In this document: in pieces, positions 6,571 through 8,553 of the stretch
Layout: the number at the start of each line of letters is the position of its first letter
Position numbering within the stretch: position 1 is the first letter of the stretch
The notes under the pieces: model-generated
What the model was told of the DNA's origin: nothing
Seen by the model: only the letters and a program-made list of their open reading frames with translations
Databases searched by the model: none
Position numbers and translations under genes: made by a program
Assembly: GCA_028716025.1 (NCBI GenBank)
Contig: JAQUQP010000012.1
Coordinates: forward strand, 13,518 to 22,070
Direction: 5' to 3'
Length of the DNA: 8,553 nucleotides
Origin: a bacterium
GTDB lineage: Bacteria > UBA6262

Positions 6571-7224
6571 TTATCCTTTCAGTAACTTGGTCATTACTTC
6601 CCCAGCTACCGTCCCGGGAGTGAAAGATCCCAGTAGTTTTTTAAAATCAAAGGGTATAAACAATATTTTTGCCGTCTCGCTGCTTGTATCATAATAACTA
6701 CAACTGAGTTGTTGTTGCCCGTCCCGGGGAAATCCGCAGGAACCATCATTGATCACTAAAGCTGTCCCCGCCCGATCAACATACGGGTGATGAGTATGGC
6801 CCATGACCACTACGGAATAACCCACTGTTTCGGTTTCGGTCAAAGACTGGGCCTGGTAACAGTAACCGCTTAAAGGATCAGCCGGACGACCATGGACAAG
6901 CAATATCTTTTGCCGGCCAACAGTAATGATCCTGGATCGCGGCCAGTCTGGAACAAGCCCTTTCATCAACAGGCTCAACCGGTAGATGCGGTTCTTTTCA
7001 TCAGGTAATGGCAATAAGCCCTTCACCATAGCTTCGTGGTTTCCCAGAAGGCAGGGAATATTCAGGTGTTTTAGTTCCTCTATTACTGCCAACCCGGCTG
7101 GTAAATATCCAATCGCGTCTCCTAAAAAATATATCTGTTCAGCACCTTCTTGACGCAAACTGTCCAGGCAAGCCAGTAAACCAGGCAAATTACCATGAGC
7201 ATCTGAGAGAAAACCGATTTTCAT
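6571..7224 (-). CDS. Calcineurin-like metallophosphoesterase (YfcE/MJ0936-like)
   Basis: A complete 217-residue cytoplasmic protein with the full two-metal metallophosphoesterase motif set: DAHGN (8-12), GDAIGY (35-40), GNHE (61-64), HGRP (111-114) and GHTHHPY (142-148). Predicted metal ligands are Asp8, His10, Asp36, Asn62, His111, His143 and His145. The size and motif spacing match the small YfcE/MJ0936-type phosphodiesterases (Metallophos_2), which cleave phosphodiesters with Mn2+ or similar metals. A tail of roughly 25 residues (193-217) follows the core fold. The gene is the first after the inserted mobile element; its ribosome site TAGGAG touches the element's edge. It ends 6 bp before the ATP-grasp start. 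Its substrate is unknown; a role in hydrolysing a nucleotide-sugar, cyclic nucleotide or lipid-phosphate intermediate is possible, but nothing in the sequence decides this. Confidence 0.93.
   Translation of the reverse strand: MKIGFLSDAHGNLPGLLACLDSLRQEGAEQIYFLGDAIGYLPAGLAVIEELKHLNIPCLLGNHEAMVKGLLPLPDEKNRIYRLSLLMKGLVPDWPRSRIITVGRQKILLVHGRPADPLSGYCYQAQSLTETETVGYSVVVMGHTHHPYVDRAGTALVINDGSCGFPRDGQQQLSCSYYDTSSETAKILFIPFDFKKLLGSFTPGTVAGEVMTKLLKG
6574..6579 (-). promoter_or_regulatory. Ribosome binding site of the ATP-grasp gene, made of upstream codons
   Basis: Minus-strand AAAGGA is formed by the final Lys and Gly codons of the metallophosphoesterase gene and is followed at once by its TAA stop; nine bases separate it from the ATG at 6564. 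This arrangement favours translational coupling of the two genes. Confidence 0.75.
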
Positions 7225-7231
7225 TGTCAGG

Positions 7232-7237
7232 CTCCTA
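7232..7237 (-). promoter_or_regulatory. Ribosome binding site of the metallophosphoesterase gene, abutting the mobile element
   Basis: On the minus strand this reads TAGGAG, followed by a 7-base spacer (CCTGACA) and the ATG at 7224. Its first two bases are the TA target duplication and the rest is host sequence, so the site is exactly at the element boundary and intact. It also fixes the start codon of the gene. Confidence 0.8.
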
Positions 7238-7268
7238 GTGTCCTGTCTCTGAAATCTCTTTACATTTG
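7236..7268 (+). repeat. Left terminal inverted repeat of the MITE-like element (with flanking TA)
   Basis: This arm begins TAGTGTCCTGTCTCTGAAAT and continues to 7268. It is the inverted complement of 7487-7519 except at 7245 and at 7261-7262. In plus-strand RNA the first of these differences would still pair as G-U (7245 with 7510), while in minus-strand RNA it would be an A-C mismatch. The first two bases are the TA counted as target duplication. Confidence 0.9.
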
Positions 7269-7362
7269 AAAGTCATATTTGAGTCGAATTCAAGGAACGA
7301 CGACGAAGTCGTATCCTCTGCGATACTTCGAGGAGGAGTGACTCAGGCCAAAGATGACTTTC
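7268..7362. other. Foldable arm 1 inside the mobile element
   Basis: GAAAGTCAT (7268-7276) is a perfect 9-bp inverted match of ATGACTTTC (7354-7362). Just inside, TTTGAGTC (7278-7285) can pair with GACTC (7340-7344) and AAA (7350-7352), leaving a five-base bulge. At the tip, CGAAGT plus ATC (7304-7309, 7313-7315) pairs with GAT plus ACTTCG (7322-7330), with a three-base bulge and a CTCTGC loop. Together these make one long imperfect stem-loop. This is seen by eye; no folding energy was calculated. Confidence 0.6.
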
Positions 7363-7378
7363 CCGAAGAACTGAGGTC

Positions 7379-7476
7379 TTTTGCCCCAGATACTATGTTG
7401 CTCGTTACTTATCCCCCTTTTTGCTTTCGCAAGAAAGCAGGGGCACGGCACTCCTCGCGCCTGGAATCAGGCAAAA
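7379..7476. other. Foldable arm 2 inside the mobile element, with a GCAA-capped hairpin
   Basis: TTTTGCC (7379-7385) is the inverted complement of GGCAAAA (7470-7476) and can close this arm. Within it, TGCTTTC (7422-7428) and GAAAGCA (7433-7439) form a perfect 7-bp stem capped by GCAA, a GNRA tetraloop on plus-strand RNA. It is extended by CCCC pairing with GGGG (7440-7443) across a one-sided TTTT bulge. A further small hairpin, GCCTG-GAAT-CAGGC (7459-7472), competes with the closing stem. No run of T follows the main hairpin on either strand, so it is not a canonical terminator. Confidence 0.6.
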
Positions 7477-7486
7477 ATATCTCCCG

Positions 7487-7519
7487 CAAATGGCAAGAGA
7501 TTTCAGAGATAGGACACTA
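7487..7519 (-). repeat. Right terminal inverted repeat of the MITE-like element (with flanking TA)
   Basis: Read on the minus strand, this arm begins TAGTGTCCTATCTCTGAAAT and matches the left arm at 30 of 33 positions. Its outermost bases double as the TAG stop codon of the glycosyltransferase gene (7519-7517), so the element's end is also coding-relevant sequence. Confidence 0.9.
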
Positions 7520-8553
7520 AATTAAAAGCTGTTCAATTGACTTTTTTACGCTTTCGTTACTCCAGGTTTTTACGGCATATTCATGGAACTTTACAGCCAG
7601 TTTATCAGCTAGAGGTTGATCCTGTAATAACCTGATTACGGTTTTAGCCAAGGCTTCAATATTACCCGGTTCCGTTAATAACGCGTTTTGTTCATCCACC
7701 AACAACCCTTCGATCCAGTCCATTTTGTAAGCCACTACCGGCAGTTGGCATAGGGCTGCTTCTCTTAGAGCTGTCCCGGTCAACGTGGAAATAAAAACAC
7801 TGGCTTGCCGGTAATAAGAAACCAGTTCTTCATTTTTCTTCGCTCCCAGAAATTCTACGTATCCGGCCAAACCCAATTTTTGGCTTAATTCCTGTAGAGC
7901 GTTCTGTTCCGGCCCGGCACCGATCAGCCATAACCGGGCTTTAATTCCCTGCCGTTGGATTATGGCTAATGATTGAATAATGTCAGCCACCATCTTCTCC
8001 CGGTGCAGACGACCGACATATAAAAGGACTGGTTCTGTTTTCTTACCCATCCCGATTGGTTTGGAGAGAGCTGTAAAAAACTCCCAAGTTGGCAATTCAT
8101 CAACCAGGACGTCAACGATCTTTAATTTTTGGCATCCCTTTTTATCCGCCGAGAGCCAATTTATATAGGTCTTAATATTACGTCCGGTAGCTACCACATC
8201 AGCTAGGGCAAAACTAAACCTGGTAAAAATCCTCTCCAGCCAGATAGGCAGACCGGAAAGCGATTTGTGGGTACTCTGGTATATTTGTTCCGGCATACAT
8301 ACCGGGATTAGTATCAACCGGTGGCGGGTCAGCAGTTTCAAGCCTAAAGCATACCACCAGGAAAATATCAAGTCTGAAGTAATATAAACGTTAATTTTAT
8401 TTTTACGGACAAAACGGAACAACCGCCATGGAGCAACCAACATATCAATTTTTGGCCAGCCGCTGGCCAAGGAAACCAGGGGACTGGATCCAGCGGTGAT
8501 CGGCTGCGCTTTTTGTCCTGCCAGATAGACAACGTAAACTTCTGCCAAAACCA
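7517..8553 (-). CDS. GT4-family (GT-B fold) glycosyltransferase, N-terminus beyond window (partial)
   Basis: The frame runs open into the right edge, giving 344 visible residues plus the TAG stop at 7519-7517. Residue numbers here count from the TTG at 8548, which reads most naturally as an internal leucine. The C-terminal domain is a typical Glycos_transf_1 unit: LLYVGRLHREKMV (175-187), RLWLIGAGPEQ (205-215), VEFLGAKKNEELVSYYRQASVFIST (231-255), then LREAALCQLPVVAYK (261-275), which holds the second Glu of the family's EX7E nucleotide-sugar site (Glu263). The first Glu position is Thr255. The preceding part is an N-terminal GT-B domain with only the first strand and glycine loop missing. 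Such enzymes transfer a sugar from a nucleotide-sugar to a lipid-linked acceptor in the cytoplasm. Its stop codon uses the TA duplicated by the inserted element plus the element's first base. Confidence 0.9.
   Translation of the reverse strand, partial: VLAEVYVVYLAGQKAQPITAGSSPLVSLASGWPKIDMLVAPWRLFRFVRKNKINVYITSDLIFSWWYALGLKLLTRHRLILIPVCMPEQIYQSTHKSLSGLPIWLERIFTRFSFALADVVATGRNIKTYINWLSADKKGCQKLKIVDVLVDELPTWEFFTALSKPIGMGKKTEPVLLYVGRLHREKMVADIIQSLAIIQRQGIKARLWLIGAGPEQNALQELSQKLGLAGYVEFLGAKKNEELVSYYRQASVFISTLTGTALREAALCQLPVVAYKMDWIEGLLVDEQNALLTEPGNIEALAKTVIRLLQDQPLADKLAVKFHEYAVKTWSNESVKKSIEQLLI

Follow-up and report, generated by a model that had tools for sequence, protein, structure and literature searches.

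A TA-duplicating, MITE-like element very probably inserted in the stop codon of a glycosyltransferase gene in a tight operon

How can a mobile element come to lie inside a tightly packed operon and leave the genes on both sides of it whole? This question is raised by an 8,553-nucleotide stretch of bacterial DNA (the window; contig JAQUQP010000012.1 of assembly GCA_028716025.1, positions 13,518 to 22,070), in which a 280-bp inverted-repeat element separates a glycosyltransferase gene from a metallophosphoesterase gene. The element is very probably a non-autonomous, TA-duplicating relative in kind of the miniature inverted-repeat transposable elements (MITEs), which was inserted in the TA of the glycosyltransferase stop codon and left both neighbors whole. 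The features of the junction are as follows.

7238..7517, no strand assigned: MITE-like inverted-repeat element, 280 bp, with nearly full-length relatives of 67-80% identity in genomes G001, G002, and G003
7238..7260, plus strand: left terminal inverted repeat, GTGTCCTGTCTCTGAAATCTCTT
7495..7517, minus strand: right terminal inverted repeat, GTGTCCTATCTCTGAAATCTCTT
7518..7519, no strand assigned: target-site TA copy on the glycosyltransferase side, bases 1-2 of its stop codon
7236..7237, no strand assigned: target-site TA copy on the phosphoesterase side
7232..7237, minus strand: TAGGAG, the likely Shine-Dalgarno site of the phosphoesterase gene, made of a TA copy and host GGAG, 7 nt 5' of the ATG
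7517..8551, minus strand: glycosyltransferase (group 1; PF00534, PF13692), 5' end outside the window, stop codon TAG at 7519-7517
6571..7224, minus strand: metallophosphoesterase (PF12850, PF00149), 3' of the element, start intact

The glycosyltransferase gene, read on the minus strand, ends with TTA ATT TAG; the TA occupies 7519-7518, and the G, at 7517, is complementary to the element's last base. After the element the strand continues with TA (7237-7236), GGAG (7235-7232), CCTGACA, and the ATG of the phosphoesterase gene (7224-7222). A sequence-only reading of this DNA had claimed that the stop codon consists of the duplicated TA and the first base of the element, G, and that the ribosome site TAGGAG consists of the other TA copy and host GGAG. 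Both compositions were confirmed base by base. The reading had also predicted that the junction without the element and one TA copy would be ATT TAG GAGCCTGACA ATG, and the same junction was computed here; from the stop codon to the ATG it holds one TA only, the stop codon's own. The flippase/GT-C junction of the operon, which had been described as being of like design (TAGGGA), reads CGA TAG GGAATTTAT ATG, in agreement with that description.

In the proposed mechanism the element would have entered the tight polysaccharide operon at the TA that belongs to the stop codon of the glycosyltransferase gene. On the upstream side the G at the element end would rebuild a TAG with the TA at the same codon, and on the downstream side the second TA and host GGAG would keep the ribosome site and start of the phosphoesterase gene. 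The exact empty sequence of the window locus is a prediction of this mechanism. Both ends of the element start with G, and a ribosome entering either end meets a TAG at once or a TGA after four codons in two of the three frames.

The stop position of the glycosyltransferase appears to be old, since its closest relatives, P0122 (80% identity) and P0123 (79%), end in the same C-terminal alignment column as the window protein. This directly supports an unchanged protein end at the window locus, and the insertion very likely left the length of the protein as it was. The contrary explanation, that the glycosyltransferase first ended elsewhere, that the element shortened or lengthened it, and that the neat stop is a by-product, is highly improbable. 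It could draw on the final residue, which is I in the window protein and S in both relatives, and on a sister copy (G001:C61) where the element did lengthen a protein, but the shared alignment column speaks against it, as does a TAA at the same codon in the empty ortholog for two sister insertions, described below. The metagenome contigs that encode P0122 and P0123 (5547 and 4413 bases) have the same lengths as those listed for the phosphoesterase relatives P0002 and P0003, so the two kinds of gene probably adjoin there. The start residue of the phosphoesterase is common to all six aligned relatives.

The anatomy of the element and its family are directly supported. The terminal repeats differ at one of 23 positions, and 22 of 24 bases are identical in the end-matching comparison described below. 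The element strand folds as a single long hairpin of -114 kcal/mol (z -7.6). No transposase is encoded inside the element, in which the sole frame has 84 amino acids (7266-7520) and no Pfam match. The element is short with terminal inverted repeats, has many dispersed copies, and has no transposase of its own, and the empty orthologs of four sister copies indicate duplication of a TA target; these are properties of a MITE.

A single search of a genome-contig collection with the end pattern gave three matches, of which only L002, from the metagenome-assembled genome (MAG) 'bacterium isolate STB_115' (genome G001), is a true relative; L001 (Acidobacteriaceae) and L003 (Treponema) were set aside because they have a single end only within 8 kb. 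The genomes G001-G005 are all those returned for the phylum of G001. At an E-value of 0.001 the element has 15 matches in G001, 11 in G003, and 2 in G002, counts that include self-matches of the arms and partial copies. There was no match in G004 at 0.001 and none in G005 at 1e-6 or, with a copy of the second core type as the query, at 0.001. Plasmid records gave four chance-level pieces only, and the end pattern had no match in viral contigs. The window, G001, G002, and G003 together hold 19 insertion events in addition to partial and nested copies; the nested copy in G003:C14 and the partial copies without clear ends (G001:C24b, G001:C71b, and G001:C18b) are excluded from the 19. The sister copies are mostly 265-305 bp long. 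In G001 and G003 the closest counterparts of the window's asparagine synthase (asnB) have 84% identity to it, which makes it very likely that the window belongs to their lineage; on present sequence data the family appears to be confined to one small bacterial lineage. Of 120 listed relatives of TrpS, those with names and with about 58-63% identity come from Firestonebacteria, Omnitrophota, Elusimicrobiota, and Ratteibacteria.

The tightly packed minus-strand genes of the window are, in order, the glycosyltransferase, the metallophosphoesterase, an ATP-grasp protein, the flippase, a protein unmatched in Pfam, asparagine synthase, and a methyltransferase. A search of G001-G005 without a positive control gave no matches to the phosphoesterase and the glycosyltransferase at 1e-25 and 1e-20; in G001 the phosphoesterase reaches 33% identity at best. 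Around asnB, G001 and G003 have only weak matches to the glycosyltransferase (28-29%), and neither the element nor a match to the phosphoesterase is present. An empty version of the window locus was therefore not open to comparison, and the empty orthologs of sister copies were used instead. These were sought with two chimeric protein queries, which joined 12 protein pieces and covered 11 junctions.

Four insertions are clear, in that the closest ortholog fits removal of the element plus two bases better than removal of the element alone. The match scores with and without TA duplication are 152 and 142 for G003:C5 (against L104), 99 and 89 for G001:C18a (L121), 160 and 154 for G003:C21 (the ybaB-recR junction; L109), and 168 and 158 for G003:C14 (a copy 5' of zapA; L122), and under TA duplication none of the four has a gap at the junction. 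At G003:C5 the empty site reads CTA followed by ATTTAAAAG, and the filled site reads CTA, the element, and TAATATAAAAG. Over all 26 comparisons of a filled site with an ortholog, the TA model is better in 19, often by a single match, tied in 1, and worse in 6.

The rebuilding of stop codons is also seen directly at sister loci. The gene upstream of G001:C18a ends with GAC TA completed by the G of the element, and the empty L121, the only ortholog found, has AAT TAA with the stop at the same codon. One copy, which separates an M50 peptidase gene from trpS, is itself split by a contig break (the end of L012 and the start of L007; G001:C51 and C62). These two genes are neighbors in G002 and lie less than 400 bases apart in G004, so the two contigs very likely join there. 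The peptidase gene ends with TTC TA and the element's G, and its ortholog in G004 (L069) ends with TTT TAA at the same codon. At G003:C21 the insertion is just 5' of the last codon and the stop, and the element supplies GGG TAG in place of GGA TAG, so that the protein end is unchanged. The sequence-only reading's reasoning on stop rebuilding and TA duplication, which had been made for the window alone, is borne out for the family by these empty orthologs. It had also asked whether other copies sit with TAG at the 3' ends of genes, and a TAG made of TA and G is found at 3 of the 19 events, the window included.

Several observations weigh against insertion of a silent, TA-duplicating mobile element. 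An empty version of the window's own locus was not found in G001-G005 by the flanking-gene search at the thresholds used, which had no positive control, and these five draft genomes hold no complete DDE_3 (PF13358) transposase. The copy at G001:C61 is not silent, and RmlD gains element-coded residues there. The gene after G001:C22 starts with TTG, compared with ATG in three orthologs, and the stop preceding this copy is at another codon than in the orthologs. For the peptidase at G001:C51/C62, the ortholog in G002 stops slightly further on, at a different codon. The TA model is worse in all three comparisons at G001:C22, in two of three at the truncated G001:C3a, and in one of three at G003:C21 (against G002); the tie is G003:C47 against G002, and two of the 19 comparisons that favor TA duplication (G003:C8) did not truly align. 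Additionally, TA flanks both sides in only 7 of the 19 events, one of which is a truncated copy.

Is the stop codon itself the preferred target? The background for this question was built with a home-made, crude gene caller from 17 stretches of G001 and only 3 of G003 (398 kb, 337 genes, 85.5% coding). It contains 2996 TAs in junction regions. Co-directional genes no more than 40 bp apart account for 312 of them, and 118 of these 312 (38%) are stop-codon TAs. This share predicts about 5 stop-codon insertions among the 13 short-junction copies and 3 are found, and the proposal that stop-codon TAs are enriched as targets was dropped. What is enriched is the short co-directional junction: gaps of 40 bp or less hold 12 of the 19 copies by the gene caller, and 13 by eye, compared with 10-20% of intergenic TAs. 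For 12 of 19 the excess has p 4e-8 with the 10% background and 5e-5 with the 20% background that results when gaps above 300 bp are dropped. The copy counted by eye is G001:C71a, which lies between the deoC stop and the pilT start and where the caller ran a frame across the site. The inverted-repeat element and its family are beyond chance; the choice of a stop-codon TA is not.

This excess would also be expected if the element sought out translation junctions, guided by their sequence, transcription, or structure, instead of inserting at random TAs followed by selection. We doubt such targeting, in part because selection would give the same picture, with insertions in genes being lost and long gaps holding promoters; moreover, stop-codon TAs are not in excess, and the background rests on the crude caller. 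The sequence-only reading had suggested that termini that spare coding sequence may explain why the insertion was tolerated. Little translational damage at operon junctions fits the data better than a special role for the exact stop, which is too strong a claim when 3 of 13 short-junction copies hit a stop-codon TA, no more than its share, and 8 of 13 have a stop codon ahead of the element. Harmless ends would then be the reason why insertions persist.

The sister copies were compared at both translational sides. In 3 of the 13 short-junction events TA and G form the upstream stop; in 2 (G003:C21 and G001:C61) this stop lies inside the element, and in 8 it precedes the element. On the downstream side many sister copies carry AGGA or AGGAG in the outward end beside the following start codon. 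Seven of the copies listed have a start codon no more than 8 bases away from the element, each with AGGA or GGAG in its outward end; G001:C34, 5' of a MutS-like frame, is a possible eighth, with the start 2 bases past the element. At G003:C47 and G001:C24a a purine-rich site that would once have been fit for the start codon is now stranded on the far side of the element. Ribosomes may start from these outward sites, judging from the sequences of the ends. A Shine-Dalgarno-like tetramer is present at 148 of 177 background starts under a loose rule, so a match to AGGA or GGAG is by itself weak.

The two ends of a copy resemble each other more than the ends of different copies do. Over 22 positions the ends match at 93% within a copy and 66% between copies (0 of 20,000 permutations), in 18 of the 19 events, with the truncated G001:C3a left out. 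Position 5 is C, G, or A and position 14 is any base, yet the two ends agree at position 5 in all 18 copies and at position 14 in 17 of them. Region identities were computed for 17 copies, leaving out G001:C3a and the M50-trpS copy that is split across two contigs. The outer ends (positions 4-19) are the least conserved region between copies, with identities of 0.79/0.78 in copies with the type 1 core and 0.52/0.57 in those with the type 2 core, below the cores at 0.89 and 0.85. A MITE moved by one transposase is expected to show the reverse, with ends more conserved than the core, and the ends of ERIC and Correia are better conserved between copies than those of this element. Matched ends within a copy could come from young copies of differing sources, from several transposases, from template switching between the arms, or from selection for pairing. 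Altered ends are found at both ends of the same copy, as AGGAGAC before argD (G003:C47) and GGGTAG at ybaB (G003:C21). It is conceivable, and in our judgment unlikely, that the element punctuates translation, with ends that close the upstream frame and open the downstream one, that it spreads through operon junctions at almost no cost, and that hairpin template switching or pairing itself, and not the sequence preference of one transposase, keeps the ends of each copy identical. An end changed at one junction would then be copied to the other end.

Could the element instead be kept as a structured RNA that acts on the operon's messenger RNA by attenuation or processing, beyond mere tolerance? 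Two terminator-like hairpins lie in gene direction shortly 3' of the glycosyltransferase stop (7461-7442 and 7501-7479, minus strand), and they would compete with the long hairpin of the element. Two such sites against a shuffle mean of 0.4, the stability of the long hairpin, and ends that agree inside each copy but vary from one copy to the next would suit an RNA function, which nevertheless seems rather unlikely. An Rfam search of the element gave nothing at gathering scores, orthologous junctions without the element imply that it is dispensable, and matching ends are equally expected from young copies or end homogenization. Orientation is similarly divided. By eye, all 12 events with a type 1 core share one orientation to the neighboring genes, but 5 of the 7 type 2 events have the opposite one, and orientation could follow replication, given that 306 of 317 background gene pairs are co-directional.

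The element has parallels in known systems. IS630/Tc1/mariner elements duplicate a TA target, as this element does, and differ in that no transposase with matching ends was found in G001-G005. One 79-residue PF13358 frame, which contains a stop, is present in G004 and none in the other four of the five draft genomes, and no element-matching ends lie near the G004 frame. Movement by a transposase is presumed, and the element is best placed as a TA-duplicating, MITE-like family with no kinship to IS630 assigned.

BOX, RUP, and SPRITE of Streptococcus pneumoniae are likewise small interspersed repeats, and the ends of RUP resemble IS630-Spn1 (PMC3049150). BOX also supplies upstream stops: 58 annotated coding sequences overlap BOX, and the repeat encodes the stop in 36 with no strong evidence of truncation, so that small repeats which encode upstream stops with no clear truncation are already known, as far as the portion of that paper drawn on here goes (PMC3049150). 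A stop rebuilt from the target TA is not described for these repeats in the same portion (PMC3049150). The Chunjie MITE of Geobacter uraniireducens is similarly short and multicopy, with one copy of full length (235 bp) and 37 others, and differs in that the copy is said to disrupt a phosphate uptake operon, according to the accessible part of the review (PMC10969869). ERIC and Correia (NEMIS) are, like this element, non-autonomous, strongly base-paired, and found inside transcribed operons, and one form of Correia has stops in every frame and lies almost entirely between genes, as excerpts of two papers state (PMC2229807, PMC3049150). The review by Delihas, in the part drawn on, treats MITE stop codons and fusions (PMC2229807). 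The likeness to all these repeats is drawn from their descriptions. Titles and abstract openings from partial literature listings, in which subscription journals are thinly covered, mention no stop rebuilt from a target TA and no start site at a MITE end.

The empty orthologs show how a mobile element can occupy a tight operon and leave every gene unbroken. When an element duplicates TA and its ends start with G or, by the same logic, with A, the TA within a stop codon is a safe place for it to land. The cost of insertions in operons becomes testable by counting, and the matched, fast-changing ends are a natural case for asking whether the arms of an inverted repeat are homogenized after insertion.

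Three further sites were observed. In L001 (the Acidobacteriaceae MAG) the 21 bp at 1355-1375 are identical to the element end with its TA and lie beside an acetyltransferase-like open reading frame, with no partner end in the stretch. In G003:C14 a copy (L022:1146-1679) contains a copy of the other core type nested at 1195-1460, with TA on one side only. A copy in G002:C34 (L023:1502-1770) lies in a tRNA cluster, between tRNA-Lys (1425-1497) and tRNA-Glu (1774-1845).
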